Assembly: GCF_009728145.1 (NCBI RefSeq)
Contig: NZ_WOCA01000010.1
Location: 1 to 64,000 of the forward strand
From: Ornithinibacillus caprae
GTDB lineage: Bacteria; Bacillota; Bacilli; Bacillales; Amphibacillaceae
DNA: 64,000 bases
Direction of reading: 5' to 3'
A program made the translations under genes and the position numbers. Positions 11,783 through 59,695 of this stretch are shown piece by piece (position 1 is the first letter of the stretch; the number at the start of each line of letters is the position of its first letter). The notes beneath the pieces were generated by a model. The model ran no database searches. It was given only the letters and a program-made list of their open reading frames with translations, and was not told the origin of the DNA.

Positions 11783-11789
11783 ACAATTA

Positions 11790-18135: not shown

Positions 18136-18891
18136 ATGGGACAAATGAAGCTAGAATCAAAAGTTTTATCGATATTAAAAGACAAAATCCAATCCATTCA
18201 AACAACGGATGGTGCAATATATTTAGTGGGGCCAGTTAAGCTTCCAGTTAATTTATACGGGGAAACAGTAGAATTCAATTGGTATTGTTGGTTAAATTGT
18301 GAGACCGTTACCGATGATTATCAGCAAATTATCGATAATTTATCATCCAAAAACTTAGCTGAAAATCAACAATCTAGTGTACTCGTTTACGGGGATTTCG
18401 AAAATAGTGATGATGCATTAATTCGCATGCATTCAATTTGTCATACAGGAGATATCTTTGGGAGTAAACGATGTGACTGTGGTTTTCAATTAAAAGAATC
18501 GATGAAAAAGGTTAAGGAGCATGGAGCGGGGGCGATTTTTTACTTAGCAAATCATGAAGGCAGGGGTATTGGTTTATTCTCAAAAGCTATGGCGTATGTT
18601 CTACAGGAAAATGGCTACGACACAGTAGAAGCAAATGAAAATCTAGGCTTTGTGAATGACTCTAGAAACTATGATGATGCAATAAGAGTACTTCAAAGAC
18701 TTCGTTCTAAGCCAGTAACCTTGATTACAAATAACCCATTAAAATTAGAGGCATTACAAAATGCAGGGTTACCTGTATCAGGTAGAGTTCCACTATGGGG
18801 CGATATCTCCGAATACAATGAAAAATATCTACAAACTAAAATAACAAAGTCTGGTCACCTTGAAGAGGAGAGGACTTGCTCCAATGACTAG
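18136..18891 (+). CDS. ribA: GTP cyclohydrolase II, stand-alone
   Basis: 251 residues. GTP cyclohydrolase II opens the guanine ring of GTP in the first step of riboflavin synthesis. The zinc ligands are visible in SICHTGDIFGSKRCDCG, the catalytic and GTP-binding loops in NHEGRGIGL and ITNNPLKLEAL. The usual Bacillus RibAB also carries DHBP synthase; that domain is absent. The first 75 residues are an N-terminal extension without a motif I recognise. AAAGGAG precedes the ATG. It overlaps ribD by 8 nt. Confidence 0.85.
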   Translation: MGQMKLESKVLSILKDKIQSIQTTDGAIYLVGPVKLPVNLYGETVEFNWYCWLNCETVTDDYQQIIDNLSSKNLAENQQSSVLVYGDFENSDDALIRMHSICHTGDIFGSKRCDCGFQLKESMKKVKEHGAGAIFYLANHEGRGIGLFSKAMAYVLQENGYDTVEANENLGFVNDSRNYDDAIRVLQRLRSKPVTLITNNPLKLEALQNAGLPVSGRVPLWGDISEYNEKYLQTKITKSGHLEEERTCSND

Positions 18892-19987
18892 CCATGAATT
18901 TTATATGGATTTGGCTATACAAAACGCTAAAGCAACAAAAGGTCAAACAGATCCAAATCCATTAGTTGGATCTGTTATTGTTAACGATAATCGTATTGTA
19001 GGGATAGGTACACATTTAAAAGCTGGAGAACCTCATGCTGAAATCCACGCACTACGAATGGCCAAAGAGCAAGCAAAAGGCGGTACCATTTATGTGACAC
19101 TAGAGCCTTGTTCTCACCATGGTAGAACAGGTCCATGTGCTGAAGCTATTGTAGAAGCCGGTTTGAAGAAAGTCGTCATTGCTACGCTAGATCCAAATCC
19201 AATAGTAGCTGGTAATGGCGTCAAAATCTTAGAGAACGCCGGAATTGAAGTAGAAGTGGGGATAGGTGAAGAAGAATCTAAACATATGAATGAAGTCTTC
19301 AACAAGTTTATTGTTGAGAAGAAGCCTTTTGTCACGATGAAGGCCGGAACAACTTTAGACGGAAAAGTTGCCACCCGTACACGAAATAGCAAATGGATCA
19401 CTTCAGAGGAATCTCGGTTGGATGTTCATCAGTTAAGAAGTGAAAACATGGCTATTCTAGTAGGGATTAATACAGTAATAGAGGATGACCCTTCGTTGAC
19501 ATCACGAATACCTAATGGTCGTAATCCAATTCGAGTGGTTTTAGACTCAAAATTAAGAATTCCATTGGATGCTAAAGTGGTGACAGATCAAGAAGCAGAA
19601 ACATGGATATTTACTAGCCAACAGCATGATTCAGATAAAAAACGGGCACTTGTTGATGCAGGTGTTTCGGTATTTGTAACAAACCGAGCTTCAACTGTGG
19701 ATCCCAACGAAGTAGTAACGATCCTTGGCGAAAAATTAGTATCATCTGTTTTCATTGAAGGTGGCGGAAATATCCATGCATCATTTTTAGAAAATAAACT
19801 TGTTGATAAAGTTGTCTTATATTTCGCGCCAAAATTGATCGGCGGAAAAGATGCACCAACATTCTTAGAAGGAACAGGTTTCGAGCTCATGAAAGAAGCT
19901 GTCGAATTAAGAGATACAGATATTGTGCGGATTGGAAGCGACTTTAAATTTATTGGGTATCCCATATATAAACTTGATACAGAGTAA
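18884..19987 (+). CDS. ribD: Bifunctional deaminase/reductase RibD
   Basis: 367 residues from the ATG at 18884, 10 nt after GAGGAGAGG. The N-terminal deaminase has the zinc motif HAEIHAL and PCSHHGRTGPC; the C-terminal reductase has TLDGKVAT, GINTVIEDDPSLTSR and EGGGNIHASF. The enzyme deaminates and then reduces the pyrimidine made by GTP cyclohydrolase II to the ribityl compound. Full length for the family. ribE and ribH are not adjacent, unlike the B. subtilis rib operon. Confidence 0.9.
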   Translation: MTSHEFYMDLAIQNAKATKGQTDPNPLVGSVIVNDNRIVGIGTHLKAGEPHAEIHALRMAKEQAKGGTIYVTLEPCSHHGRTGPCAEAIVEAGLKKVVIATLDPNPIVAGNGVKILENAGIEVEVGIGEEESKHMNEVFNKFIVEKKPFVTMKAGTTLDGKVATRTRNSKWITSEESRLDVHQLRSENMAILVGINTVIEDDPSLTSRIPNGRNPIRVVLDSKLRIPLDAKVVTDQEAETWIFTSQQHDSDKKRALVDAGVSVFVTNRASTVDPNEVVTILGEKLVSSVFIEGGGNIHASFLENKLVDKVVLYFAPKLIGGKDAPTFLEGTGFELMKEAVELRDTDIVRIGSDFKFIGYPIYKLDTE

Positions 19988-20041
19988 AAATTGCGGATAC
20001 GAATGGATACGATCATTCTACACATACAATAGAGGGATAAT

Positions 20042-20602
20042 ATGAAATTTGGTTTTGATATTGATGATACATTAATTAACTTAAGAGAGCATGCTTTTAA
20101 TCTATATAAAAGGAAGCTCAATCAACAGCTATCACGTGATGATTTTCTAGCGATTAAACGAGTAGAGATTCATGAACCATTTGGGTTATCTGACGTAGAA
20201 GGAAAGGAAATGTGGGATAGCTCTTTAGAAGAAATTTACTATACGGATTGCCCTCCTTTTCCCGATGCTGTTGAAACACTGCGTAAACTTCAACGAGACA
20301 GGCATGAAATATACTATATTACCGCACGGCCAAAGGAGCATGGAGAACGTACGAAAGAATGGATGAAGCAACAAGGATTTCCTATTCAAAATGATTACTT
20401 CTTTTATGGAATGAAGGATGATGAAAAGATTCATATCATTCAAGACCTTAAACTAGATTATTATGTAGACGATAAACCTGCTGTATTAGAGACATTATCA
20501 GAAACAGATGTAAAATTATTCGTAAAGGATCAGTCCTATAATCAGGAGCTAGAATTACCTCGAATTGTTGATTGGGCAAATTTTATGAACGTTTTAAAGT
20601 AA
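20042..20602 (+). CDS. HAD phosphatase, NT5C/YqfW type
   Basis: 186 residues with HAD motifs DIDDTL at the N-terminus (nucleophile and acid), YITARP and the metal-binding YYVDDKP. The class resembles NT5C-type 5'-nucleotidases and B. subtilis YqfW. It follows ribD by 54 nt with AGAGGGA before the ATG and ends at the shared terminator. The riboflavin pathway needs a phosphatase exactly after RibD, so that role is an attractive inference; a house-cleaning nucleotidase is the alternative. Confidence 0.75.
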   Translation: MKFGFDIDDTLINLREHAFNLYKRKLNQQLSRDDFLAIKRVEIHEPFGLSDVEGKEMWDSSLEEIYYTDCPPFPDAVETLRKLQRDRHEIYYITARPKEHGERTKEWMKQQGFPIQNDYFFYGMKDDEKIHIIQDLKLDYYVDDKPAVLETLSETDVKLFVKDQSYNQELELPRIVDWANFMNVLK

Positions 20603-20611
20603 GTATAAAAG

Positions 20612-20645
20612 AAGGACGTTCCGACTAAGATAGCGGAACGTCCTT
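20612..20645 (+). terminator. Terminator of the ribA-ribD-HAD unit
   Basis: AAGGACGTTCCG at 20612-20623 pairs perfectly with 20634-20645; TTTT ends the right arm. Confidence 0.85.
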
Positions 20646-20667
20646 TTGGTGTATTTAGGATAAAGTT

Positions 20668-20790
20668 GACTCAGCATTTATCGGGGATAATTCAGCATTT
20701 TATCGATTAATTCAGTACTTCTCGGCCATAATTCAGCATTTTATCCATTAATTCAGTACTTCTCGGCCATAATTCAGCATTTTATCCATT
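20668..20790. repeat. Alternating 20/21-bp tandem repeats
   Basis: Two unit types alternate: A (20 bp, AATTCAGCATTTTATCCATT or CGATT variant) at 20689, 20730 and 20771, and B (21 bp, beginning AATTCAGTACTTCTCGG) at 20709 and 20750. A degenerate A-like unit starts at 20668. The A+B period is 41 bp. The array lies between converging genes. Confidence 0.9.
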
Positions 20791-20823
20791 ACATAAACCG
20801 TTGTTTTATTAAGCGCTCTAAAA

Positions 20824-23127
20824 CTAACGAGATATTACTTCATATTTATCCTTAGGAACTTCATCTATAAATTGGCAGGCACTACCAGTAACCACCATAG
20901 CCAACTCGTGCATCGCACGTGTGCATGCAGTATAAAAAAGTGTTCGATCTGATTCCACATAACCTTGAGCAGAGGCATCTGGAATAATTACCGCGTCGAA
21001 TTCAATACCTTTTGCTAAATAGACTGGTAGTATCAATAATCCCTTTTGAAATGTATACGTTTCTTCATGAATAATGCTGATCGGAAGCATATCCTTTAAT
21101 TGTTCATAAAGCTTATTAGTTTCACTCATTGTCTTGCATATTATTGCGATCGTTTCATTGCCTTTTTCCTGAAGTTCAGTAACTTGATTCACTAATGTTT
21201 CCACTATATCTTTTCCATTTAAAGATTGAACAATTTTCGGTAATTCGCCTTCTCGTTCAAATGGTTCGATGACCTCTTCTCCAGGAGCAAAATAACTTGT
21301 AAATTCAACAATTTGCTTTGTGGAGCGATAGCTTTTATTCAATGTAATTCGCTCATGATTCCCTTCCACTTCCTCTGGTATAAGCGGATTTTCTTTCGTT
21401 ACTTGAGTATAAATTGCTTGATTAATATCACCTAGTAAAGTCATTCTTGTATACGGAAACACTCTTTTAATAAATGCATATTGGAAAGCAGAATAATCCT
21501 GAGCCTCATCTATAAATAAATGCCTTACAGAACGGTCCAAATTATCCCCAAGTATCCTTTCTTGAAAGTATACATACGGAGTAGCATCCTCCCACGTTAG
21601 AAATCTTTTTTTCAGATATGAAGCTGTTTGTTTAGCGATTGCGGTCCAGCTTGGCGGTGTATTTCCTTTTGACTCCCACTCCAAAAAGAACCTATAGAAT
21701 GTTGCAAGAACGTTAACATACTCTAAATTTCTGATCTGTTTTTTAATACGAGAGAAAAATCGTCTCACAATCTCTTTACGTAGTATCTCCTCTTCCATAC
21801 TTACATCATTTTCAAATTCATTATCCTTATAATATGCTTTTAAATATTCTTCTTTATCTAGTAATTCTACTTGCTCCATCACCCAGTCCTGATCAATCTC
21901 TGTCTTTTGATGTTCACGTATTTTCTCCAATAACCACTTCGTTACAAGTTCAATCTTATTTGGTATCGCAATTTCTTTATCCAAAGAATAAAAGTAATTC
22001 GCAATCTCTTCTTTAGAAATTAAAATCCGCTTCTGAAATGTAATATTTTTAAAACGAATCCCACCGTTTTCTAGGCTAGAAATATACTCATCTATAAGTT
22101 CCATATACTCCTGACTTGATTTATAATCCATACCTAATAACCGAATTCTATAGTCTTCATCATCCTTTTTCGTTAACACATATTCCATCTGTTCAAAAGG
22201 CGATTCAATGGTAACAGAGTCTATGGTTCGTTCCCTTAAATAGTCTAAAAACGTAGTTTGCCTTACATTGGTTTCACCCAACTCAGGAAGTACATTTGCT
22301 ATATAGCTTGAGAACAATGGATTCGGTGAAAACATGACGACATTTTCAGCATGTAACTCCTCACGGTATCGATACATTAAGTAAGCAATTCGTTGCAGTG
22401 CAGCAGAGGTTTTTCCACTTCCTGCCACTCCTTGAACAATCAATAAATTGCTCCGTTCGTTCCGTATGATTCTATTTTGCTCCTTTTGTATGGTAGCAAC
22501 AATATTTTTCATAGTAGAACTAGCATTGTTTCCAAGAGCTTGTTGTAATAGCTCATCACCGATGGTTACACCGGTATCAAACATACCTTTAATTAAGCCA
22601 TGACGAATAATAAACTGTCTCTTCAACGTAATTTCACCAGTTATTTTTCCATCTATTATTTCATATGCAGCTTTACCAGGAGAATAGTCATAATATAAGC
22701 TAGAGATAGGAGCTCTCCAGTCGTAAACTAGAAAATCTTCCTCATCACGATCCATCAAGGACGCAATTCCAATATAGATTGGTTCCGCTTCCTTTTCACC
22801 ACTTTCGACAAAATCAATTCGTCCGAAATATGGTGATTCTTTTAACCGTTTTAATATTTTTAGCTGTTCATCAATTTTTCCATGACTTCGTTCTCTTTGG
22901 GATAACAGTTCTGCTTGTTGCTTCAGACTTGCCTCCGTTTCAATGATATCGTCTGGTTCGTCTAAATTTACCTTTACATCGTCCCAAAACGTCTTTCGTA
23001 AATCAATGACATCATCTTTTATGCCCTTTGCCTTTGCATGCAATTGCTGTGCTTTCTGGTTGATTTCATGGATCACATTATCCACGCGTTGTTGTTCTGC
23101 AGCACGATTATTAGCTTTATTACTCAT
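20824..23127 (-). CDS. helD: RNA polymerase recycling motor HelD
   Basis: 767 residues. HelD binds RNA polymerase and uses ATP to release it from stalled or finished complexes. The N-terminal 90 residues are helical (coiled-coil arm), then come Walker A VQGVAGSGKTSAAL, Walker B HLFIDEAQDYS, and the SF1A motifs GDINQAIYTQ, LNKSYRST and a C-terminal YTACTRAMHEL. YDWRAPISSLYYD before the helicase core is typical of HelD. It is monocistronic, with a strong promoter on the opposite strand in its upstream region. Confidence 0.9.
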   Translation of the reverse strand: MSNKANNRAAEQQRVDNVIHEINQKAQQLHAKAKGIKDDVIDLRKTFWDDVKVNLDEPDDIIETEASLKQQAELLSQRERSHGKIDEQLKILKRLKESPYFGRIDFVESGEKEAEPIYIGIASLMDRDEEDFLVYDWRAPISSLYYDYSPGKAAYEIIDGKITGEITLKRQFIIRHGLIKGMFDTGVTIGDELLQQALGNNASSTMKNIVATIQKEQNRIIRNERSNLLIVQGVAGSGKTSAALQRIAYLMYRYREELHAENVVMFSPNPLFSSYIANVLPELGETNVRQTTFLDYLRERTIDSVTIESPFEQMEYVLTKKDDEDYRIRLLGMDYKSSQEYMELIDEYISSLENGGIRFKNITFQKRILISKEEIANYFYSLDKEIAIPNKIELVTKWLLEKIREHQKTEIDQDWVMEQVELLDKEEYLKAYYKDNEFENDVSMEEEILRKEIVRRFFSRIKKQIRNLEYVNVLATFYRFFLEWESKGNTPPSWTAIAKQTASYLKKRFLTWEDATPYVYFQERILGDNLDRSVRHLFIDEAQDYSAFQYAFIKRVFPYTRMTLLGDINQAIYTQVTKENPLIPEEVEGNHERITLNKSYRSTKQIVEFTSYFAPGEEVIEPFEREGELPKIVQSLNGKDIVETLVNQVTELQEKGNETIAIICKTMSETNKLYEQLKDMLPISIIHEETYTFQKGLLILPVYLAKGIEFDAVIIPDASAQGYVESDRTLFYTACTRAMHELAMVVTGSACQFIDEVPKDKYEVISR

Positions 23128-47543: not shown

Positions 47544-47667
47544 AACGATTTACACCCTTCTTTCTAAAATATAACTATTAATTTATATCATTATTATTTA
47601 CTTTTTCATGTGTAATGCTATTATAGAACATAATAATAAATCACATAAGTACGCACTTTTATGAACC

Positions 47668-47689
47668 ATAGTATACAAAAAGATACTAT
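47668..47689 (+). promoter_or_regulatory. HxlR operator candidate
   Basis: ATAGTAT at 47668-47674 and ATACTAT at 47683-47689 form a spaced inverted repeat directly before the ribosome binding site of the HxlR gene. Confidence 0.5.
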
Positions 47690-47702
47690 AGGAGGGAATA
47701 CA

Positions 47703-48056
47703 ATGAAAATAGAGCCGGAATTATGCCGTGTAGAGGATGCCTTAGGAATATTAGTAGGCAAATGGAAACCAATTATTTTACTTCATTTATTAAAGGAGGG
47801 CACGCAGCGATTTAGTGAATTAAAAAGGAGTATGCCCGGAATTACCCAGAAAATGCTAACCAAACAATTACGAGAATTAGAAAGCGAGGATATTATTGAA
47901 CGAGTAGTATATCCTCAAGTTCCCCCAAAGGTAGAATACTCCATTACAGAATATGGTCGTAGCCTGCAACCCATCTTAGAAATGATGCATGAGTGGGGAA
48001 CAAAACATACATTACACAAAATGGAAAAATTGAAAAACAAAGAGAACACTCTTTAA
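47703..48056 (+). CDS. HxlR family regulator
   Basis: 117 residues from the ATG at 47703, 5 nt after GGAGGG. The winged HTH is typical: [47 protein letters not shown] and the wing [15 protein letters not shown]. Cys at residue 8 (ELCRVEDAL) is the conserved position that senses electrophiles or oxidants in YodB and HypR relatives. It is divergent from the flavin monooxygenase operon, its likely target. Confidence 0.88.
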
Positions 48057-48198
48057 TATTTGCCTAGAATAAGAGGATAATAACAATAACACTAAAAAAA
48101 CACTTTTTTCATAAATCTTCAGTTTTTTACAACACTCGATATAAATAGTGTATACTAGTCATATAGGAACGTACGTTTCAGAAAAAAGGGGGAGAATA

Positions 48199-48339
48199 AT
48201 GAAGAAAGCGCTTTTAGTTATTGATGTTCAAAATGACATGTTTCAAGAAGAAAATGCAGTACACAATGGAGAAAGATTGCTGCAAAATCTAAAAGATTTA
48301 ATAGCTCAAGCACGTTCTAGTCAGACACCAGTAGCTTAA
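48199..48339 (+). pseudogene. Isochorismatase-family hydrolase, 5' fragment
   Basis: GGGGGAGAAT precedes an ATG and the product begins KKALLVIDVQNDMFQ, the start of isochorismatase-like cysteine hydrolases with the catalytic aspartate in VIDVQ. After ARSSQTPVA the frame meets TAA and the sequence changes to recombinase coding. The 3' end of the same family lies at 58682-58846 in the same direction. About 80 middle codons are missing. Confidence 0.85.
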
Positions 48340-49154
48340 CGGAAAATAGCATAAAATCCTATGAGAATCTATTTAATGTATTTGGTGACTGGGTTAAAGA
48401 ACAAGGAATTGAGCATACACAAGATTTATCTACTCAAGTGATAAAGTCGTTCTTACGAGAATTTATGGAAAAAGGGAATAAACCCAAGACCATTAACTCT
48501 AAAATAAAGTTGTTACGAGCATGGACTAGGTGGATGCTTGAGGAAGAGATAATTGACAAGGATATTTGTAAAGGTAATAAACTTGTACGTGAGGAAGACA
48601 TTCAACTGGCACTTAGACATTTAAGAAGAAAGAAACGTCGTGAAGATAGTTTTTATTTTATTCGAAACTACACTATTATGATGACTCTTATTGGTACTGG
48701 ATTAAGGATAAATGAGTTAGTTAGTCTAGATTGGAATGATATAGATTTCACTGTAACAATCAGGAAAAGTAAGAGCCGAAAGCAAGGGTCAGTTCCTCTT
48801 TCAGAAACACTAGCTAAAGAGTTAAGTTCTTGGAAAGAATATGTCGATAACAAATATAATGAAAAGCCTACTGCTGTATTTGTTAATCGTATGGGACAAA
48901 GGCTTACTAAGAATGGTGTACAGTTATTTATTAAGCGATTAAAGCGGGATTTAGGGATTGAAGGAGACTTTTCTCCCCATGCTATGAGAAATGTGTTTAT
49001 TAAACGCATATTGATGAATAAAGCTAATCTAAGAGAAATACAGTTATTAGCGAGACATTCAAAGATTGATGTTACTAGGCAATATATTGGCTATTTTCAG
49101 TATGAGTTGAAAAAAGTATTGGATGAACATGACCCACTAAGAGGGTTAGTTTAG
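48321..49154 (+). pseudogene. Tyrosine recombinase, 5'-truncated
   Basis: The open frame begins at 48321 with no good start; the first usable codon is a GTG at 48438. Coding similarity (LTENSIKSYENLFNVFGDWV) begins right at the joint with the isochorismatase fragment, so the first 20-30 residues are lost. The catalytic domain is whole: Arg in TGLRINELVSLDW, Lys in SKSRKQG, HxxR in SPHAMRNVF, His in LLARHSKID and Tyr in TRQYIGY. It is the probable integrase of the island, likely no longer fully functional. Confidence 0.8.
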
Positions 49155-49213
49155 ATATACCTTTTATCGAAAAAGTAGGGTTGTAGTAGTTATTGCGGTG
49201 GAAAAACCTAAAA

Positions 49214-49246
49214 AACTGACTTCCTTATTATTAAAGGAAGTCAGTT
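49214..49246 (-). terminator. Terminator of the SEC-C gene
   Basis: AACTGACTTCCTT at 49214-49226 pairs perfectly with 49234-49246, with a T-run on the leftward strand. The stop codon of the SEC-C gene begins inside it. Confidence 0.8.
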
Positions 49247-50501
49247 ACCTACCACAACACCTTTTATATTTCTTCCCGCTATCACAAGGACACATATCAT
49301 TTCGACCAATCTTCTTAGTAGAAGGTTTTATTCTACTAGATTTTTCAAAAGGATTTTTACGTATTATATAATCCTTGAATGCAATCCTGTTAGAATGTTC
49401 ACTTAACATCAGGAGTTGTTGTGGTTCTTCAACTAAGTTAGAAAAATAAGGTTTAACTGCAAAAGGTAATTTTAAATATTCTATAAGTTCCATAGAACTA
49501 GGCTTTTCATTATATAAACTTTCAACGTTGATTACGGTATGTTCCTCACCATGAACTTCAATTTGCTCAAAATTAGGGTCTAGGAAAAATCTCATAAAAA
49601 CTGACGTATCAGTTATATAAACATCCCCTTCAGTTCTTCCAGTGAAGTCGAAAATATCAGTACAGACTATCTTTATAATATCATCTTTGGTAGGTGAGCT
49701 TGTAGGTAATTTAATATCCATGTATTTTTGTACCTTTTCGGGTTGATTAATTAGTATTTTTTCTCTTCTATTGACTTGTTCAACCCCATTTAAGATTTCT
49801 CTTTCTTTTTCATGGATTTCATATTCTGAATAGGGACGAGTTAGACATTTCATTTCAATTAACAATATTTTGTCACCCATAACACCTATCATGTCATATT
49901 CTACTTGTTTTTGGTCGTAAGCTATAAACTTAACCTTTGTGTTATTAACCTTAAAAAATGGAGCAAAATTCATAATTGAAATTAATTTATTCTCTAAATT
50001 AGTTCCTTTAGATGAAAGTTGTATCTTAAAAGCGTTTAAATGTTTTTCTACTATTCTTTCTAAATTCATTTGTTCTATTAGATGAGGACAAAACACAACC
50101 TGATTATCACCAACGTAAATAAGCGGTTGGGAGAAAATGTCTAAGCTTTTCTTCATAAACTTAGGCTTAAATATAAATAACTCAATTAACTCATTTGCCT
50201 TTTCTATTTCAATATCATAATTTTTAATAAACCCCTCAACAAAGTAATTAATATCAAAAACAGGAGTTAAGAAAGAAAAATCAGAGTCGTTAAAATAACG
50301 AGAAGAGTTATTGCTATAGGCAAACCCTATGGATAATAGATAACTAAAACAATTATACAAGTTGGATAGAGAAATAGTCTTGGAGTGACCAATTCTTATT
50401 GTTAGAAATCTATCTCCTAATTTATCTTTCATTTTCTCAATAGACGAGTTTATCCTTGGTTTAAAGATTTGATAACATAAATTAAGTAACTTAGAGTCCA
50501 C
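49245..50501 (-). CDS. SEC-C protein with PD-(D/E)xK-like nuclease core; 3' part of a split gene
   Basis: 418 residues from the GTG at 50501. The C-terminus is a SEC-C zinc motif (NDMCPCDSGKKYKRCCGR). In the middle, VEYDMIGVMGDKILLIEMKCL has the Asp and E-x-K pattern of restriction-like nucleases. The frame stays open upstream for another 47 codons to a single TAA at 50643-50645, with no start codon, and is in register with the gene before it. The GTG has no clear ribosome binding site. This is therefore probably the second part of one protein of about 730 residues. Confidence 0.7.
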   Translation of the reverse strand: MDSKLLNLCYQIFKPRINSSIEKMKDKLGDRFLTIRIGHSKTISLSNLYNCFSYLLSIGFAYSNNSSRYFNDSDFSFLTPVFDINYFVEGFIKNYDIEIEKANELIELFIFKPKFMKKSLDIFSQPLIYVGDNQVVFCPHLIEQMNLERIVEKHLNAFKIQLSSKGTNLENKLISIMNFAPFFKVNNTKVKFIAYDQKQVEYDMIGVMGDKILLIEMKCLTRPYSEYEIHEKEREILNGVEQVNRREKILINQPEKVQKYMDIKLPTSSPTKDDIIKIVCTDIFDFTGRTEGDVYITDTSVFMRFFLDPNFEQIEVHGEEHTVINVESLYNEKPSSMELIEYLKLPFAVKPYFSNLVEEPQQLLMLSEHSNRIAFKDYIIRKNPFEKSSRIKPSTKKIGRNDMCPCDSGKKYKRCCGR

Positions 50502-50642
50502 GCTAAATACTTCTTCAGGTTTATTGACCGAGAACTTGATGTTATTTTGAACCTCTTCTACAGCTGTGTTGGCAATTTTAAAATCGAGATTAGTTATAAA
50601 ATCTAAAAATTCCTTATACCTGTACCTTAGAATGGCAGCTTT

Positions 50643-51434
50643 TTAAAGTTTAAAATTGTAATCATTTCTTGGTACATAGTAAAAAACGTTACCACCTTGG
50701 GATTTATAACGTAAAAAATTCCAATCCCTATACTTTATCTTTTCCCACAAAATATCGAGCGTTTGCTTATGAGAGGTTAAATGCATAATCATTTCTAAAC
50801 TCGGAATAAGATAAGGTGATACATCAGAGTATGTATTGTGTAATTGCCCATCAATTTTCCCTTTTGAATTATAATGAAGCAATCTAATTAAAGTATCAAA
50901 TAAATCAATAATCGCTTCAAGATTATCACTAACTGAGTGTTTTTTACCATCCTCCGTTACTACCTCTTCTAAGCCTGTAAGGTATTTTTTTTGATTCATT
51001 TTGTCTTTAAGATTTCTGTGTGCATACATAGCTTGACTCTCTATAAATGTACAATACATCTGGACTTGCTTTTTAAATGGAATTTCCAAAAATTCGTTTT
51101 TTAATAGTAATTCGTTATTTTCTTTTATAGCTTGATAGATAATATTAATCGAATTTATCAAACTTGTAGATTCTTTAACGAAATTATTATATTTCTCTTC
51201 CATGCTATTTTCTTCTATAACCTTAAATGCAGTAATAAACACCCTATTCATAAACTGAATATCTTTTTCCTTAACTCCTAAGGTAATCGGTTCAAATAAT
51301 ACTTCACTGAGGAGTATGTTTCTAATGAAAGATTCACTATCTTCAAGGTATAATAACATTAACTGTTGTACAGATTTTGTTAAATCGTGTTTTATTAGAT
51401 TAGTTTTCAAAGATTCATAACTCGTTTCCAACAC
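50643..51434 (-). CDS. Helical protein, probable N-terminal part of the SEC-C gene
   Basis: 263 residues from a GTG at 51434 behind AGAAGGTG. It is almost wholly helical, without membrane segments or a motif I recognise. It ends RNDYNFKL at TAA, after which the same frame continues KAAILRYRYKEFLDF into the SEC-C gene. It diverges from the AlbA_2 gene by 80 nt, which holds a palindrome. A role in phage defence is inferred only from context. Confidence 0.65.
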   Translation of the reverse strand: MLETSYESLKTNLIKHDLTKSVQQLMLLYLEDSESFIRNILLSEVLFEPITLGVKEKDIQFMNRVFITAFKVIEENSMEEKYNNFVKESTSLINSINIIYQAIKENNELLLKNEFLEIPFKKQVQMYCTFIESQAMYAHRNLKDKMNQKKYLTGLEEVVTEDGKKHSVSDNLEAIIDLFDTLIRLLHYNSKGKIDGQLHNTYSDVSPYLIPSLEMIMHLTSHKQTLDILWEKIKYRDWNFLRYKSQGGNVFYYVPRNDYNFKL

Positions 51435-51461
51435 GTTACACCTTCTTCATAATATGGTGTA

Positions 51462-51472
51462 GCTATTATAGC
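51462..51472. promoter_or_regulatory. Palindrome between the divergent AlbA_2 and SEC-C genes
   Basis: GCTATTATAGC is symmetric about its central T and is centred in the 80-nt gap, where it could act on both promoters. Confidence 0.4.
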
Positions 51473-51514
51473 ATACTAAAATCTAATAATTACCAATTAA
51501 GGGGGTATAGAGAT

Positions 51515-52810
51515 ATGGAAGTTAGCAAAGCAAAGTTCTTGGAACTAGTACAGAGTGGACGAGAAGATAACTGTTGGGATTTTAAAAAAGAGATGTCAAT
51601 AAAGCCAAAAGAAAAATTTAATGAATTGATAAAAGATATTCTGGCTTTCTCTAATTCAAAGGGTGGGTATTTATTATTAGGCGTCGATAACAATGGCAAT
51701 CTAACAGGAGTGGAAGAAGAGTTAGATGAAGCTAATTTAGGAGGTAAAATAGAATCTATATTGGGTTATGCTATTGATATTAAGTTATTATATTTTAATC
51801 ATAACATTGATGATAACGAGATGAAACTGGGCATATTATCTATTCCAAAATCAGAGAAAATTCGAGTGTCACCTAAATCTTTAAATGGGAATAAGGGGAT
51901 AATAGTAAGAGAAAATGCAATATATGTAAGGAGAAATACTAGAAGTGTAGAAGCTAACAGTGAAGACCTTGAAACAATAAAAAGTAAGATTAACTTAAAA
52001 GGAAGTTATAGATTTAAAGAACATGATTTACAAGTTATTAAGCGGAACCAAAGGCATTATGTTGGTATGCATAAGATTTTAGTTGACTATTTTAGGGACA
52101 ATTTTTCGTTTAACTCGAATACATATTCTATGAAGCTAAATGAAATATTTAACTTCATTCCCTCTAAGTATAATAAACTTGAATTTGCGAGGATAGTGGG
52201 TATTGAGGAGACGAAAATAGATGACCATTTTGAAGGAAAATCATTTCCAACTTTAGAACAACTTTTACGTATAACGTTAATGTTTGATTTACCAAATGAT
52301 TTTTTCTTTAGACCAACTATTTATTTAAGATATCCTATTTGGCAAAACCCATTGGTTAATTTCTCCATTGTAGATAAGGTAGATAATAAAGATTATCTTT
52401 TAAATATTAATGAAAAAGATTTTTTCTCGGATTACTTTAAGACCCTAGCAAAAGAAACTATTATTTTTACCAGATTTATTAGGAGGGACAGACCAAAAAG
52501 AGAAGAAATTTCATTAAAAGGTACCTTTGAACCTAGAGGAGAAAGAATTTTATTTAAGTTACTCGAAGACCTATCCGACGAAAAATTTGAAGAATACAGA
52601 GAACAGTTAAGTACTCAATTCTACAAAATTCTTGAAATGGTTCACGATGAAAATCACATTGATGCTCCTGAAGAGTTTCTTTATCATCTTATAGGTTTAG
52701 ATAAATCACTCTTATGTAGGATAATTAACGAATCCACCAAAGAAATTAAAATAAATAAGGACTCTTATCACTTTTACTTTAATTTTATCGAAGAAATAAA
52801 AGGTTACTAG
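51515..52810 (+). CDS. Schlafen-type AlbA_2 domain protein
   Basis: 431 residues. Residues about 8-150 form the AlbA_2 (Schlafen core-like) domain: CWDFKKEM, DILAFSNSKGGYLLLGVDNNG and a GIIVRENAIYVRRNTRS end. Then comes a segment like an HTH (LEFARIVGIEETKIDDHFEGK, about 225-250) and a helical C-terminal half without recognised motifs. No AAA ATPase or HATPase extension follows, unlike many AlbA_2 proteins. AAGGGGGT precedes the ATG. It diverges from the split SEC-C gene, and the two may form one system. Confidence 0.75.
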   Translation: MEVSKAKFLELVQSGREDNCWDFKKEMSIKPKEKFNELIKDILAFSNSKGGYLLLGVDNNGNLTGVEEELDEANLGGKIESILGYAIDIKLLYFNHNIDDNEMKLGILSIPKSEKIRVSPKSLNGNKGIIVRENAIYVRRNTRSVEANSEDLETIKSKINLKGSYRFKEHDLQVIKRNQRHYVGMHKILVDYFRDNFSFNSNTYSMKLNEIFNFIPSKYNKLEFARIVGIEETKIDDHFEGKSFPTLEQLLRITLMFDLPNDFFFRPTIYLRYPIWQNPLVNFSIVDKVDNKDYLLNINEKDFFSDYFKTLAKETIIFTRFIRRDRPKREEISLKGTFEPRGERILFKLLEDLSDEKFEEYREQLSTQFYKILEMVHDENHIDAPEEFLYHLIGLDKSLLCRIINESTKEIKINKDSYHFYFNFIEEIKGY

Positions 52811-53176
52811 AAGTAATAAACAGCAAAGTATTTTAAAAAAGAAACCTTCTTTCTGGATAGACCACATAACAGTGTGTACTGCTGTCTAGAGGAGGGATAG
52901 TTTACATACTTAAGCTTCCCAGCAACTCCCCAAAAGTTATTAATACATTATCCTAGAAAACCTATAGTGTTTTTCAACGAGCTGAACACACACTAAATAA
53001 AACAATTATTCTATTTAAAGTTAAATAGATTAACGATAAAAATAGTAATATTGTACCAGATGTCATAATTTTAGTGGTAAAGTAGCTATAGCGTTTCTTT
53101 TAGGTGATATTACAGGAGCTATTGTTGGTTAGTAATTCCAAACGCAACATAATATAAATAGAAAAGAGGCTAACAT
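52811..53176. other. Gene-free stretch in the island
   Basis: About 366 nt of AT-rich sequence. A short frame near 53060-53135 ends LLGDITGAIVG but has no start signal and looks like a remnant. No clear promoter or hairpin. Confidence 0.4.
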
Positions 53177-54232
53177 GTGAAGGATTCAAAACAAATAGAT
53201 AGAGTTTCAAGGTTAGGAGTAACTCTAACAATTCTAGGTGTTATATGGTACGTCCTTTTAAAGGCTTTAGACCTTTTATTAACCATTTTTTCGCAAAAGT
53301 TATATCTTAATAGTATTTATAGTTCAGAACACTTTATTGCGTTAGTCTTTGTTTGTGTGTTTGTATCAATCTTAGTAAGTGGAGTAAAGTATGTTTACTC
53401 TGAATTAAAGACCTTAAAGCAGTTTGACGATGAATCTTTATTTTTAGAAGCAAAAAAAGTAGCAAACAACAATTTTAACGATATATTTGTCATGTTGAAA
53501 GTTAACCTTACTTTAATCATTCTTTCAATTGTTTTTGTGATTATCTTGGAAACAACCCTTTTTAATTCTAATGTATTCTTAAAAGGTGTTTATGTCACTT
53601 TTGTTATAGCAATTATTATTCTTTTAATTATTAGAGATACCAGAAGAAATTTCATTGCATTTTCTAAGAAATTATACAGCTTTGTAAAATTAAGAATGAA
53701 ACAGCTTAGTTCTTGGTTTTATATCTTATTTTTATTAATTATACTGGCATTTAGTTCAACCGTTCTATCTTCTAATTATGGACAAACAATAGAGGTTAAT
53801 TTTCAAGATGAAAGTAGCCTACCTATTGATATAGAATTTACAAATTTTGAAATAGAAAATATAAAAATTTACCTTTTCGAATTAAAAGGTGATAATGGGG
53901 TTCTAATTAATGATATTACAATCCCTAGAAAGGACTTCTATGAAAGCTCTTATAGTGTACTTGAGACATCATCAAAGCATCTATTGAGTAGTAATGAAGA
54001 CAAAGAGGCAATAGCATCCTTTGATTTCAGAAAACAACAAACTGTTTTAAGAAAAAGATTCGAACTAATAAATTATATTAGCTCACCTTTATATGACGGG
54101 AAATATCGAATTAAAATAGTGGTAGAGAACAAATATAACCTCGACTCAAAAAAATTCGAATTAGTAAATGACTTTCTCGTGGAAGGAAATAAATCTATAT
54201 TTAATAAAAATGAGTTTGTCATAGAATTATAA
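53177..54232 (+). CDS. Five-helix membrane protein with extracytoplasmic beta-rich domain, unknown
   Basis: 351 residues from a GTG at 53177, seven bases after AGAGG; the ATG two bases earlier is followed at once by a stop. Hydrophobic helices lie at about 14-38, 53-72, 107-126, 134-152 and 179-197. The last 150 residues are beta-rich and probably outside the cell (TIEVNFQDESSLPIDIEFTN on). No family recognised. As a lone membrane gene among defence-like genes, it could be an effector, but that is a guess. Confidence 0.6.
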   Translation: MKDSKQIDRVSRLGVTLTILGVIWYVLLKALDLLLTIFSQKLYLNSIYSSEHFIALVFVCVFVSILVSGVKYVYSELKTLKQFDDESLFLEAKKVANNNFNDIFVMLKVNLTLIILSIVFVIILETTLFNSNVFLKGVYVTFVIAIIILLIIRDTRRNFIAFSKKLYSFVKLRMKQLSSWFYILFLLIILAFSSTVLSSNYGQTIEVNFQDESSLPIDIEFTNFEIENIKIYLFELKGDNGVLINDITIPRKDFYESSYSVLETSSKHLLSSNEDKEAIASFDFRKQQTVLRKRFELINYISSPLYDGKYRIKIVVENKYNLDSKKFELVNDFLVEGNKSIFNKNEFVIEL

Positions 54233-54435
54233 CATTATTGAGTTAAGTCCTGGCTAGCTCAAACTTGCTCTAATTCTTTAATTCGTTAACTAAATTTAAA
54301 GCAATCCCAACCAGATTCCCCTTGTATTGTAATAATAGATTATAAACTATTAAAATCTTTGATTATAGAGAATAATAAAAAGGGTTCTTAGTTCAGTACT
54401 TACTGCCGCGGACACGCTTCGCTTTGTCCTTGTCT

Positions 54436-54463
54436 ACGAGTTGAAAGCAAGCTTTCAACTCGT
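54436..54463. terminator. Perfect 13-bp hairpin inside the island
   Basis: ACGAGTTGAAAGC at 54436-54448 pairs with GCTTTCAACTCGT at 54451-54463 around two A, and a T-rich stretch follows. It is probably a terminator, though 200 nt past the nearest rightward gene. Confidence 0.6.
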
Positions 54464-54578
54464 CTATTTTTATTTCATAATTATTGATTTAAATCACTCT
54501 TCTCTTAAGAGATTTTTCAAAAACACCTTGATTTTATTGGGTTTTCAACACCCTCTTAGGCAACTGTTTTTCCTAGAA

Positions 54579-55862
54579 TCACAAATGCCAGTCGCTAGGT
54601 GGTTCCGTAATGATTGCTTCTTTTGGAGCCTCTTCAAATACATCACTATTTAAGTATTGATTCAATAAACCTCTCATCCTACTGCTTGGTATATAGATTC
54701 TAATAGATAATTCATTTCGTATTCTACTTCTCCATACCCATTGAATTAACTCTGACAGAGCCCATGTATCTTGATCGATTTCATCCCCATACTGTTCGAA
54801 GAATTTCTTTTCGATAGGATTAAGAAACCTATTTACTAAATATGCTAGACACTCCCTATGACTATAATCATTTGTTGCACGTGAAGTCATGGGAACAAAT
54901 CCTCCCACAAAACCCTTTGGAGACACTTTTTTCTATATTTTTTCTTTATCACCTTTCACAGTAGTCCACATAACATTGTTAACTTTCTCACCACAAATGT
55001 TACCTAAGTGATTTCTAGCATTATTTCTAAGCTTTATTATTAAATCCTTATTCTTAGTTTTATCAAACCAACTTTTAGACAATGCAAAAGTATTATCACC
55101 TATTTTATTCAGACTTCCACCATAAATATCTATTTTCTTTAACCTTTTCTTTGTTATAAGGTTTCCTATCCTTATATGGAATTAGGTAAAATCTCTTATT
55201 TTCACTAATAACAGATAGATACCTATATTTAATTCCGTGCAAGTCATAGTAAGCTTTTTGTATTTGCCCCTTGAATAGATACGTCAATATAAAGGTATTT
55301 TGAAATGATGAAAAAACCTCACACGGGAAATTCCAAATGAGTGCTGAATTATCACAGTACATGAAATTGTTAGTTAAAGCCTTTTGCTTTATCCATAATC
55401 TTTTTTTGACTCGTTCCATTTTATATATTTTAAACCAGTTTCTTTTTCATCTATTTAAATAGCTTCCGCTTCTAGCAGAAGAGTTAAATCACTTTTTCTT
55501 AATGGAACTTGTACAATAATATTTAATACTTCATCAAATATTAGAGTATAATTATTCACCCTTATCAACTCCAGGGTTTCAGCAGTTGCCATTTGAAACA
55601 ATGCATGAGTTGTGCAAATATCTTTTCCTTCCCCTAATAACTTATGGACGTCGTCTAATTTGGTTTCTCCATTCCTTGCTAAGGGCTCAAAGGATTCTCT
55701 AGATGTAACGGAGTGCTTAACCCTCTTTACTTCTTCCAAGAAGGGTGTCACATATATGAATTGATGTGTGTCTCTATCCATTTCACTCACTCATTATTGT
55801 ATTGCCCAAGATGTTTTTCCATATCCACAGGGCACGTCTACTACATTGATTGTTGAATTCAT
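54579..55862 (-). pseudogene. DEAD-box helicase of phage/plasmid type, multiply broken
   Basis: Pieces of one gene follow each other leftward. ATG at 55862 opens NSTINVVDVPCGYGKTSWAIQ (Walker A), then a frameshift and stop. The next frame (55455-55790) holds MDRDTHQFIYVTPFLEEV, ICTTHALFQMA and LIFDEVLN (a DEAx-like Walker B). A third (55105-55419) is of uncertain fit, and a fourth (54579-54926) carries the C-terminal LSELIQWVWRS and IYIPSSRMRGLL. Such helicases occur in phages and plasmids of Bacilli. At least three disruptions make it non-functional. Confidence 0.75.
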
Positions 55863-56488
55863 ATTAGCATTTCTCCCTAAAAATATATTTTTTCTTTAAC
55901 TCGTAAGAAATTACATTCTACTGTTGTTTAACTATCGACTTAGATGTTCCTTAGATAATCCTATACTGCTAGGAATGAATGTATAGAAGAACTATGTTTA
56001 ACACATACTTAGTGCTTAGTAACATTATCATTCAATATTTATCCCACTTTTTTTACGTTTAAGTGATGTAATAACATAAAAAAAACCTAACAAAAGATTA
56101 GGAGTTAAAAATTCGACCTTCATAAATAAAATGCATTAAGGTAAATATAATACATTGTTTTAGCTAAATCATTATTGAGAAGAAAATATGGCTTTGTTAT
56201 ATACTCTATTTAGAATTGTAATTTGTGTGCAAATTTTCAAGAAAATGACATTTGATTAATTCGTATCGTAGAATTCCGCTTACGGATTTATGATTATAAG
56301 TGCTTACACGGAGCACAATCTGAGTAAAAGTAAAAATTCCTTTAAACCATCCCCTAGTTAGGTTAATTTACTTCTTATTAACTATTAAAAAGTAAAAAGA
56401 CTACATTACTTTCTGTTATGTAGTCTTTTTAGGGAAAATTTATTCTTATATTAATACTAAACTGAGGTACCTTGTAACCCTTACCTTC
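55863..56488. other. Gene-free stretch between helicase remnant and RT gene
   Basis: About 626 nt. It holds the RT terminator at 56394-56430 and two small hairpins (ATTCCG-CTTA-CGGAT near 56274-56289 and GTGC-GCAC near 56302-56318). No open frame with a start signal. Confidence 0.4.
56394..56430 (-). terminator. Terminator of the reverse transcriptase gene
   Basis: AAAAAGACTACAT at 56394-56406 pairs perfectly with ATGTAGTCTTTTT at 56418-56430. Confidence 0.85.
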
Positions 56489-58420
56489 CTAGTTAGCTGT
56501 TTCAAGTTGTTTTAAACACAATGATACAGCACTCTTGTAATAATCATACTCACGTTTAGTCACTGCAGAGCCTTGAACATTCTCATCTCCAGAATGGGAT
56601 ACTAAATTATTATTTCTTCTATCAAACATATTTCTTAATTTAATACAAATAAAATGTTCTATACTTTGTTTTTTTAAAAATACTTCAATAGAATTAGCAT
56701 TGTAGTTCTGAGATTTTATTGTATCCAGCGAATAACAAATTGATTGGAATTCATTTACAAGATGGTTTAGGGCAACTGAATAATCTCCTCTCATTTCATT
56801 TAACACCCTAAGCTCCATCTGCTTTATAATTAAAGGGTTATTATTCAGTAAGTAATAAATATATTCCATGCTTAAATCAAAATATCCAGGATTTTTGTAA
56901 TCAAATTCAGTTATCTTATAAAGCTCTAGGACTTCGTTAAAGTGTTTATCTTCGTATAGCTTTTGAAATAGCTTTTCATGATTAAAATTAAATTGACGTA
57001 ACGCTTCAATTACGAGAAGTCTTGCATTAGATGTGGAAACATCCTTTGATAGCAAATAATTAATGTATTTCTCTTTTGTTTTGTCACTTTTCATCACTAA
57101 AATGGTTAATACCAAAGGACTTACACTTAACAAATCAAAGTTAAAATCCTCAAATATTGATTCAAGTTTTGTCTTATTTTCTCCCTTATTCAATAGATTT
57201 GAGATATCCTTATCAAAAATCTTGTGAAGAATGTATTGGTTAATCTCACTATTATTTCTTTCTAAATTAACCCCACCATTCTTAATTCGTTCTAATTCAT
57301 CTATTATTTTTTCAATTATTACTTCATGACTTTCTTCCTCTTGGGTATTATCACCTGTATCAATCGGAACATCTAGAAATTCAATTACAGATTCATTCTT
57401 ACTGTCCTTAAAAAATTCTTCTTTCTCGTTTGGACTTCCTAAATTATATATTTTTGTCTTATTGTTAATGTTAAGTTGAAAATCATAGAAAGCAATATCC
57501 TTTATTTTAGCTAAAATTTCAACAGCTTCTTTTATAGGTTGGCTATTATCAGAATTGTTATTAGGCTTAAAAGGAATATAAATATCATCTAAATATCTAA
57601 TTATACTATACTCTTCATACTCGAGAGATTTCATTAGACTATCTATTCTCAAATCTAAAAAACAAAGATATAAATAACCAATAAATGAAGATATTATACT
57701 ATTGTCTATTTGTGGTATTCCCTTTTTATTATCCATCAAGAACTTATAAAAGGTTTCTATTTCTTTTATCGTATTTTCATCAAAGTTATGCTCCAACTTG
57801 TCATTGGGTTTAATAGTATCTTGCAAGAATTTGAGTAACTTTTCTACTGGAAGGTTATCAAAATAATTCTGGATGTCTAATCTAATGACAATTGAATCGT
57901 TTTTATCTTTGGTATGGGTTGTAAGGTTATTTCTAAATTTTTTATACTCATTTTTGTAATAAATATTATTCTGGGTAAATTTTATACTGTTATTTTGATA
58001 CCTAATATTCCCTCCATAAAATGTATTAATGGTTTCAATCTTTTTATAGTAGTTAAAAATGAAATCATCAGAAATCTTTAGTAGATACAAACCAATAGAA
58101 TTATGTATCATATTTAACCCATAAGAAATAAAGGAAAAGTTTCGAATACTATATACATTCTTAGGTATAGCATATTTCTTAATAAAATATTCTTTATTTA
58201 AATCATAAAAAATATTATTACTTATCCTACTATTAAAATAACAATTTAAGGATACAAGTCTTCTTAATGATTTTTTTATATTATTAAAGTAGTTTATATT
58301 AAACGTTACAAAATGGGGGTTTTTCTTGCTCAACTTTATTGTTTCTTCTTGTAAATTATAACTATCCTTCCAAGTATTATAATCTATGAAATATCCTAAT
58401 GAAGCTTTGTTTGTTTTCAT
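56489..58420 (-). CDS. AbiA-like abortive infection reverse transcriptase with HEPN motif
   Basis: 643 residues. The RT palm motifs are in order: motif A VIRLDIQNYFDNLP (Asp182), motif B GIPQIDNSIISSFIGYLY (from about 234), motif C RYLDDIYI (YLDD at about 276-279), motif D and E LNINNKTKIYNL and IEFLDVPI. The C-terminal 300 residues are helical and end with RRNNNLVSH, giving Arg602-x6-His609, an R-x4-6-H pattern of HEPN ribonucleases. Length and layout match lactococcal AbiA (about 630 residues), which blocks phage replication. GGGGGGAT precedes the ATG. No msr/msd-like RNA is evident, so it is not a retron. Confidence 0.78.
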   Translation of the reverse strand: MKTNKASLGYFIDYNTWKDSYNLQEETIKLSKKNPHFVTFNINYFNNIKKSLRRLVSLNCYFNSRISNNIFYDLNKEYFIKKYAIPKNVYSIRNFSFISYGLNMIHNSIGLYLLKISDDFIFNYYKKIETINTFYGGNIRYQNNSIKFTQNNIYYKNEYKKFRNNLTTHTKDKNDSIVIRLDIQNYFDNLPVEKLLKFLQDTIKPNDKLEHNFDENTIKEIETFYKFLMDNKKGIPQIDNSIISSFIGYLYLCFLDLRIDSLMKSLEYEEYSIIRYLDDIYIPFKPNNNSDNSQPIKEAVEILAKIKDIAFYDFQLNINNKTKIYNLGSPNEKEEFFKDSKNESVIEFLDVPIDTGDNTQEEESHEVIIEKIIDELERIKNGGVNLERNNSEINQYILHKIFDKDISNLLNKGENKTKLESIFEDFNFDLLSVSPLVLTILVMKSDKTKEKYINYLLSKDVSTSNARLLVIEALRQFNFNHEKLFQKLYEDKHFNEVLELYKITEFDYKNPGYFDLSMEYIYYLLNNNPLIIKQMELRVLNEMRGDYSVALNHLVNEFQSICYSLDTIKSQNYNANSIEVFLKKQSIEHFICIKLRNMFDRRNNNLVSHSGDENVQGSAVTKREYDYYKSAVSLCLKQLETAN

Positions 58421-58560
58421 AAATATCCCCCCAAGTTATTCCACTTTAATAATATAATACTGTATTTAAAATGGAAATAATAGGATAATTATAAGAAATA
58501 CGAATAACAATCTACTATTTTCACTTATTCTTTAAAAATGAGGGCTCTAAAAAAGTTATG

Positions 58561-58589
58561 TTGACTATATTTATTGACCATATTACAAT
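58561..58589 (+). promoter_or_regulatory. Promoter in front of the tRNA-Ala fragment
   Basis: TTGACT at 58561-58566, 17 nt, TACAAT at 58584-58589. An imperfect 14-bp inverted repeat, TTGACCATATTACA at 58574-58587 with 58607-58620, overlaps it. Confidence 0.55.
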
Positions 58590-58645
58590 TAAGTAAGAAA
58601 ATTTAATGTAAGATGGTCAATACGTCTTAAACTATTGTACATTAC

Positions 58646-58683
58646 GGGGCATTAGCTCAGCTGGGAGAGCGTTGCACTGGCAG
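58646..58683 (+). pseudogene. tRNA-Ala(GGC), 5' 38 nucleotides only
   Basis: The acceptor strand GGGGCAT, D-arm GCTC-AGCTGGGA-GAGC, anticodon stem strand TTGCA and loop CTGGCAG (anticodon GGC) are all present, then the sequence stops being tRNA at position 39. The expected TGCAA partner strand and the whole 3' half are absent. It cannot make a tRNA. It marks the right edge of the island. Confidence 0.8.
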
Positions 58684-58846
58684 AAGAGCATTCAGTATGG
58701 AGTATAAGATTACTTTAGTTTCTGATGCACATAGCACATTTCATTCACGTGAAATAACAGCACAACAAATAATTAACCATCATAATCGCGTATTGCGTTT
58801 TTTTGCTAATGTTTCCCCAAGTAAAGATATTGAATTTATTAATTGA
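58682..58846 (+). pseudogene. Isochorismatase-family hydrolase, 3' fragment
   Basis: The frame from 58682 reads RRAFSMEYKITLVSDAHST, then QQIINHHNRVLRFFANVSPSK and ends at TGA 58844-58846. This is the standard C-terminus of the isochorismatase-like hydrolases and lies in the same direction as the 5' fragment at 48199, so the two are halves of one gene. Confidence 0.85.
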
Positions 58847-59317
58847 CCACGAAGTAATGGACGTATAGTAAAGGATAATGGAAACGAATTTTTTTGAAAA
58901 AAATAGTGTTGATAGGATCAAGAGTTAAAAGATTGGATATTGTACTAGTTATGTTTTTATATTTGTTGAAATTGATGTCGCATAATGAATTCTGACAAAA
59001 GGCTAATCCCAAAGACTTACAAACAAGTAATTTTTGGATTGGCCTTGTTCTTAATCTTCTTTTGCTCAAGTACAATTAACGATATCCATCATTAAGAGTA
59101 AGAATCGGTAAATCTTCTTACAAATTCATTTTTTGTTAATGTTTATCTTACATCATTTAATAAGAAATAAACACGATTCCATTAAGAAAAGCACAATTGT
59201 TCAATTGAATTACCATTCCCTCAACCAAATCGCCTCATGAAATTCCTCTAATGCGTTTGCATTATAAAACTGTTCTAAACTAGCTCAAGAAAGCGTCCTA
59301 ATTGAGATATTTTAAAA
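58847..59317. other. Gene-free stretch right of the island
   Basis: About 470 nt without a credible gene. A leftward frame at 58839-59075 lacks a ribosome binding site and overlaps the isochorismatase fragment. Confidence 0.5.
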
Positions 59318-59695
59318 TCAAATATGTACTTCTTTATTTGAATTAGTTCTTAAAGTTACAACGACACTAGCTATACTAACTAAAGATCCTAAAACTGCAA
59401 TAACGCTTACCCCAACTTGATTAGAAAAAAGAAAACCAATTGGTATAACTCCTAAAAATGAAATAACTATGAACGCTTGATAAACTGCAGATACAACTCT
59501 CACTACACGACTAGTAAATAGCGATAAAATTAAAGGTGGTAAAAATAGAATTACTATCATCCCAATAGATAGCCACAAACCAATTGGTTCATCATATGAA
59601 ATAGTGTTAGGACCTGTTGGATGTTTAGCAGCTAGTAAAACTGCTACAACAGCTAAAATTAAAGTTACAAATACCATAAAAAACCTTTTAAACAT
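59318..59695 (-). CDS. Four-helix membrane protein, unknown
   Basis: 125 residues from the ATG at 59695, ten bases after AAAGGGGA; the longer frame to 59770 runs over that site. Four hydrophobic helices are separated by short loops (FFMVFVTLILAVVAVLLAA, GLWLSIGMIVILFLPPLIL, VYQAFIVISFLGVIPIGFLF, VGVSVIAVLGSLVSIASVVV). No family recognised. Single gene. Confidence 0.55.
   Translation of the reverse strand: MFKRFFMVFVTLILAVVAVLLAAKHPTGPNTISYDEPIGLWLSIGMIVILFLPPLILSLFTSRVVRVVSAVYQAFIVISFLGVIPIGFLFSNQVGVSVIAVLGSLVSIASVVVTLRTNSNKEVHI

Follow-up and report, generated by a model that had tools for sequence, protein, structure and literature searches.

A decayed, displaced tRNA-Ala island with defence-like cargo inside an isochorismatase-family gene of Ornithinibacillus caprae

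The first 64,000 nucleotides of contig NZ_WOCA01000010.1 from Ornithinibacillus caprae (hereafter the window; source contig 131,909 bp, draft genome 4.16 Mb in 40 contigs) raise the question of what kind of element came to lie in the middle of an isochorismatase-family gene, and how it came to stay there. A preliminary description, made from the letters alone, had read the two ends of one such gene, lying in the same direction about 10.3 kb apart, as the scar left by a defence island that had landed in a housekeeping gene. The split itself is borne out: the PF00857 enzyme is not present as one continuous gene, its two fragments read in the same direction across a gap of 10.35 kb, and single intact genes elsewhere contain both. 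The insert between them is very probably a member of a family of islands seated in tRNA-Ala(GGC), with its native right end kept; what the window holds belongs to a type of tRNA island already known, though rare, here decayed and out of its usual place, with cargo that is defence-like but partly derelict.

The evidence that carries this assignment lies at the right edge of the insert, where the preliminary description had not noticed the tRNA-Ala half at 58646-58683. This half stops after the anticodon loop CTGGCAG (58677-58683) and enzyme sequence comes next; among the matches listed, most tRNA matches end at 58683 and the others one to five nucleotides later, some of them gapped. ARAGORN and Rfam gave no call for the half, a silence that is expected because only half a tRNA is there, and Rfam at its gathering score found no family across 48000-59400. 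The identity of the first 38 nucleotides of a congener's tRNA-Ala (genome G010) to the fragment could point to homologous exchange, in which the block would have been copied from a tRNA-Ala island elsewhere in this genome or in a congener; yet the host tRNA-Ala is intact elsewhere, the 501 bp read at that locus show no island, and the genome outside the window matches the block over only 29-46 nt, in three places, so that such copying is very improbable.

Relatives of the integrase at the left end of the insert, which reads inwards, show what the complete element looks like. With the integrase of genome G085 as query, 22 of 397 genomes of the order matched at E<=1e-50, 11 of them (own genome included) at an identity of at least 49%, and the family is rare in further family and class draws (3/44, 2/41 and 4/398 genomes, E<=1e-70). 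Nine loci with related integrases could be named, eight of them in Metabacillus, Halobacillus, Salipaludibacillus, Anoxybacillus, Sporolactobacillus and Thalassobacillus; the last is a distant match, at 27% identity, in an Omnitrophota metagenome-assembled genome. Both ends are readable in six islands, those of G085, Halobacillus aidingensis, Salipaludibacillus, Sporolactobacillus terrae, Halobacillus litoralis and Anoxybacillus rupiensis, and all six have the same order: the host tRNA-Ala 5' half, the integrase, the cargo, and a composite tRNA-Ala(GGC) whose 5' half comes from the element and whose 3' half is the host's. These islands span 6.7-17.8 kb, their integrase starts 136-189 bp past the start of the core, and their left and right ends part 0-2 bases past CTGGCAG (two in H. 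litoralis, at most one in the rest). In G085, whose integrase is 80% identical to that of the window, a tRNA-Ala 5' half stands on one side of the gene and a complete tRNA-Ala(GGC) on the other. Since the tRNA matches of the window and the ends of the six islands both break near CTGGCAG, the right junction reads as a native element end and not as a random break. Three further loci (G403, Metabacillus crassostreae and Metabacillus niabensis) have the left tRNA half only, the far end of the G403 island not being found in about 34 kb downstream or in 15 kb at the contig end; no tRNA-Ala half was found in G324, G555, Thalassobacillus devorans or the short G945 stretch.

The window element therefore shares with this family a homologous, inward-reading integrase at its left end and a tRNA 5' half closing after CTGGCAG at its right, and departs from it in its site, which is not a tRNA-Ala(GGC) gene with the host 5' half on the left: isochorismatase sequence lies on both sides. 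That enzyme sequence, together with the intact tRNA-Ala of the host, marks it as a displaced relic and not as an intact member. The relic is itself damaged. Its integrase is identical to that of M. crassostreae at 82% of 274 aligned residues, and the open reading frame (ORF) at 48438-49151 scores 103.7 bits with Pfam Phage_integrase; compared with relatives, the protein lacks 9 and 3 further residues, both as in-frame internal deletions. At the left junction the enzyme homology ends and integrase codon 17 (48330) begins within a few bases; the left attachment (att) junction, the leader and 16 integrase codons are absent from the window.

Compared with known systems, the relatives of the window element share with Islander-type tRNA islands (tyrosine integrase, anticodon-loop site A) a tRNA gene and a tRNA fragment flanking the island; unlike those islands, this one sits in a protein gene and has no complete tRNA beside it, only the half that it brought along. 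The alanine islands leave the host 5' half behind and supply a new one, as do the 5'-fragment islands of PMC4383910, and this polarity is rare but known, because 159 of 3919 Islander islands counted there leave a 5' tRNA fragment; PMC9897764 deals with tRNA fragments in general. The wider integrase family differs from such 5'-fragment islands in having tRNA-Val(GAC) members, two of them with the usual 3' polarity. Related integrases adjoin a complete tRNA-Val(GAC) in G129, G248, G358, G174 and G937; four of these islands were searched at the far end, where two carry a 3' fragment (nt 29-76, the usual polarity) and no fragment was found in the other two. The valine islands of G248 and G358 (L059 and L060) rebuild the 3' half of the tRNA, and polarity thus varies within one integrase family.

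Homologues of the broken enzyme show which part of the gene is missing. Both blocks lie within one gene each in the four homologues that were laid out (G014, G031, G028 and G057), so that the candidate reading of the fragments as two different genes was rejected. Against each of the four the window lacks 228 nt, or 76 codons between the adjusted edges 48332 and 58684, close to the 80 or so first proposed. On the left, blastn alignments to intact homologues end at 48317-48332, past which (from about 48332) the ORF runs through insert sequence to a stop; on the right, alignments of the 3' block begin at 58676-58683 and so overlap the tRNA core. The 3' fragment (58684-58845) is matched at E<=1e-4 in 13 of 158 other genomes of the family (14 of 159 with its own; three of the 13 align over 28-85 nt only) and in none of ten congeners, and for this reason the gene is classed as accessory; its description as a housekeeping gene is not supported. 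An HxlR regulator (47661-48056) precedes the 5' fragment. All 11 genomes of the genus, the own one among them, have DNA matches to the left flank and 7 of the 11 to the right flank, with the two flanks adjacent in no congener; consequently no empty site is directly readable, and alignment with relatives yielded the intact gene in the four homologues and not the uninterrupted locus in a congener. The 10-kb block is not a conserved core region either: none of 100 relatives has it among the DNA matches listed, the longest listed match to the insert being the 0.8-kb integrase of G085. Composition was left out as proof of foreignness, because the right flank also has 30-33% G+C, beside about 24-33% in the insert; the left side, over 42-48 kb, has about 36-41%.

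How, then, did a tRNA island come to lie in a protein gene? The history that we favour, and hold to be probable on the sequence evidence, is that the integrase inserted the island at an off-target site and that a deletion came afterwards. An island with its own integrase, which normally targets the anticodon loop of tRNA-Ala(GGC) and, unusually, carries a tRNA 5' half on its far end, may instead have entered the enzyme gene where the sequence comes close to the 7-bp core of the tRNA (several homologues read ACTTGCAG there, as against ACTGGCAG). Its native right end, closing after CTGGCAG, still adjoins the remaining 3' portion of that gene, and one later deletion at the left end would have taken the left junction, a leader of about 130-140 bp (judged from relatives), 16 integrase codons and 76 enzyme codons, after which the island would have been unable to excise by itself. 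The decay (integrase deletions, broken genes) is observed, and the order of events is what we infer.

Homologues of the enzyme offer some support for such a site. Twelve were compared at the core, the thirteenth match (G453, 28 nt) being left out: the aligned position reads ACTTGCAG, 7/8 identical to ACTGGCAG, in 4 of the 12 and reaches 6/8 in another 3, where the chance of a match of at least 7/8 is 0.00028 per window position. In three of ten homologues tested, no other stretch of the gene, on either strand, matches the core better than this site. By our own reading of the codons the mismatched T lies in a cysteine codon, so that 7/8 is the maximum where the cysteine is kept.

Several points weigh against this history. 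Firstly, the core match is only 3-5/8 in 5 of the 12 homologues; in the worst of the ten the 7-mer gives the site a rank of 198 among 1068; and the whole 17-nt tRNA stem-loop matches poorly (6-9/17), so that this would be a weak secondary site. Secondly, the left att junction is gone, and we therefore infer integrase action from the right end alone; the core match is judged from homologues, and an empty site was not found in any congener. Thirdly, two relatives read at the left end only, M. crassostreae and M. niabensis, have tRNA-like sequence that continues for about 10 nt beyond CTGGCAG, so the crossover point is not fixed to the base. Lastly, a linear fragment of an island, brought in by double illegitimate exchange, would give a similar scar. 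In a one-step replacement, a broken linear piece of an excised or transferred tRNA-Ala island would have been swapped for the middle of the enzyme gene by microhomology, with no integrase acting here; the loss of both the enzyme middle and the left end of the element would then follow from a single event, for which the short CAG shared at the right junction would be enough as microhomology. The right breakpoint, however, is the native element end of six islands, where a random break would rarely fall, and we regard this replacement as rather unlikely. As for an assembly artefact fusing two loci, the genome is a draft in 40 contigs, but the block is internal to its contig, the enzyme 3' fragment comes after the tRNA half at the expected element end, and the insert has decay of its own; assessed from the assembly alone, there is little reason to credit an error.

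Off-target insertion followed by deletion has a counterpart in the review PMC8371274, in which integrative elements become permanently captured by settling at secondary sites and by losing their att sites. The present element would share with these routes the off-target insertion and the att loss that lead to permanent capture, and would add to the review a concrete bacterial case with defence cargo, in which a tRNA half serves as evidence of origin.

Why such an insertion should have survived may be connected with the tRNA that the element would rebuild. In five of the six islands the element's 5' strand of the anticodon stem makes 5/5 pairs with the host 3' strand, and 12 of 720 permutations of the six pair equally well; stem pairing is not independent of integrase arm binding. 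The remaining island, that of A. rupiensis, has at its right end a composite tRNA-Ala (L099 19145-19217) with a mismatched anticodon stem, with 3/5 pairs when G-U is allowed, which ARAGORN was unable to assign. Between its left end and the integrase the same element has a complete tRNA-Ala(GGC) (L099 9843-9915), in which we read a G3-U70 pair, the alanine identity mark. No spare whole tRNA was seen in the other islands searched, and in the window the place where one would lie is lost. The window element (TTGCA) makes just 2/5 pairs with the host strand (ACAAA), and the genome holds only one other tRNA-Ala(GGC) match, by an exact pattern that could miss a divergent copy; the congeners G010 and G006 have a stem matching the window element's half. 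Insertion at the proper site in this host would thus probably have spoiled its tRNA-Ala(GGC), and the off-target insertion could have survived because the element half pairs so poorly with the host tRNA. From this follows a tentative hypothesis, which we put forward as possible but not as the likelier state of affairs: that islands of the 5'-half kind are locked to hosts with a pairing anticodon stem, that in mismatched hosts an insertion at the proper site would damage the tRNA, and that survivors there are either off-target insertions or carriers of a spare tRNA. The hypothesis draws on one off-target case, the window, and one exception, A. rupiensis. Judged by title or abstract opening, no paper that literature searches gave dealt with a tRNA-stem barrier, which is not proof that nothing has been written.

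Features of the interrupted gene and its insert in the window
Feature	Coordinates	Strand	Evidence
5' fragment, isochorismatase-family gene	48199..48339	+	Pfam Isochorismatase PF00857 35.9 bits (cutoff 27)
Tyrosine integrase, start and first 16 codons lost	48330..49154	+	80% identical to G085 integrase from residue 17
SEC-C gene, one in-frame stop giving two ORFs	49245..51434	-	single stop in translation; SEC-C above, NERD below Pfam cutoff
Schlafen AlbA_2 protein, 431 aa	51515..52810	+	Pfam PF04326 54.6 bits (cutoff 25.3); PADLOC candidate PDC-S50 7.1e-14
351-aa ORF, several hydrophobic stretches, membrane protein by eye	53177..54232	+	no family
SPbeta yonV-like wreck, three pieces	54579..55790	-	phrog_2467 positions 28-140, 186-260, 326-424
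AbiA abortive-infection reverse transcriptase, 643 aa, open	56489..58420	-	NCBIfam TIGR04499 273.1 bits (cutoff 250), residues 10-636; PADLOC AbiA 228.1 bits
First 38 nt of tRNA-Ala(GGC) gene, native right element end	58646..58683	+	38/38 identical to congener G010 tRNA-Ala
3' fragment, isochorismatase-family gene	58684..58846	+	long DNA matches 71-80% identity; intact homologues

The gene content of the insert largely agrees with what had been noticed from the letters: an integrase, a SEC-C gene, an AlbA_2 protein, a membrane protein, a phage wreck and an AbiA-like reverse transcriptase, with two amendments. The two minus-strand SEC-C ORFs beside the integrase (50643-51434 and 49245-50501) were rejected as separate genes, being one gene with one stop: the joint translation, 729 positions counting residues and stops, contains a single stop, and both halves match one annotated coding sequence on a Cytobacillus kochii plasmid at 31-33% identity. 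Plasmids of Cytobacillus and Lysinibacillus carry homologues, 29-33% identical, that are each annotated as one gene; the NERD-like (nuclease-related) match is weak. What had been called a phage-type helicase wreck is indeed a wreck, of an SPbeta yonV-like gene, one piece of which (55458-55790) is 46% identical to SPbeta yonV; an open homologue stands in the H. litoralis island (L096 14216-15535; 62-63% over two pieces). Another yonV-like relative (49-56%) lies near the integrase fragment of T. devorans (L102 19135-20298), making this gene recurrent cargo. The ORF at 53177..54232 had no Pfam match over cutoff and no PHROG, PADLOC, NCBIfam or plasmid match. Between this membrane-protein gene and the yonV wreck, a perfect 13-bp inverted repeat with a 2-nt centre (54436-54463), followed by a T-rich stretch, is possibly a terminator.

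The reading frames of AbiA, the AlbA_2 protein and the membrane protein remain open; those of SEC-C and the yonV-like gene are broken, and that of the integrase is truncated. As defence genes, AbiA is strong, the AlbA_2 protein belongs to a PADLOC candidate family only, and SEC-C is broken. The preliminary description is borne out as far as a mobile island with defence-like cargo interrupting an enzyme gene is meant; as a defence island the element is a candidate, and in part derelict.

The best-preserved defence gene, AbiA, holds the motifs RYLDD (reverse transcriptase active-site aspartates) and RNNNLVSH (C-terminal HEPN R-x6-H), where the Lactococcus AbiA of PMC11077055 has RYVDD and RNSNPVSH. 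According to that paper, polymerase activity is required for defence, whereas the HEPN R-x6-H motif is dispensable for defence and the HEPN domain is needed for polymerase activity. By analogy, the window AbiA would most likely act like the known one, blocking phage through untemplated DNA synthesis. It is distant in sequence, as phmmer against the PDB set found no AbiA chain even at E<=10 (three unrelated chains at that threshold) and no solved AbiA relative at E<=0.001. It is also rarely matched: AbiA-family matches occur in 2 of 397 genomes of the order (E<=1e-30, own included), and the window AbiA as query finds only its own genome among 159 of the family (E<=1e-40), nothing in the phage set and one match in the plasmid set (24% of the query covered, 29.9% identity).

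Defence cargo is recurrent in the related islands, though perhaps not universal. The G085 island carries HerA, NurA, a methyltransferase and a PDC-S26 protein, and that of H. aidingensis Lamassu LmuB and an OLD/Gabija-like protein. Nine proteins chosen from the 28 non-integrase ORFs of at least 90 aa in L058, L061, L096 and L099 gave weak PADLOC matches (best 2.7e-8) or none. A family scan covered 43 ORFs of six islands together, with the first 25 of 143 families among the matches listed. In G555 (L136 1015-4252) a decayed integrase of the same family lies beside a SLATT protein and a second AbiA-type reverse transcriptase (PADLOC 561 bits), with what we read from the ORFs as an IS21-like gene pair downstream. 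Near the M. crassostreae integrase, L095 has a NACHT and pentapeptide protein (18686-20824) and, at 11436-12407, a DNA/RNA non-specific endonuclease whose start resembles that of a lipoprotein.

The locus provides a readable natural case of how a mobile island goes astray from its tRNA target, disrupts a protein gene and ends up fixed there together with phage-defence cargo, in which the surviving tRNA half reveals the type of element involved. Within its integrase family tRNAs are rebuilt in both polarities, and the comparison suggests a rule of stem pairing that would limit the hosts open to such islands. If that rule is true, the stem of a tRNA would be a host-range barrier for mobile defence genes.

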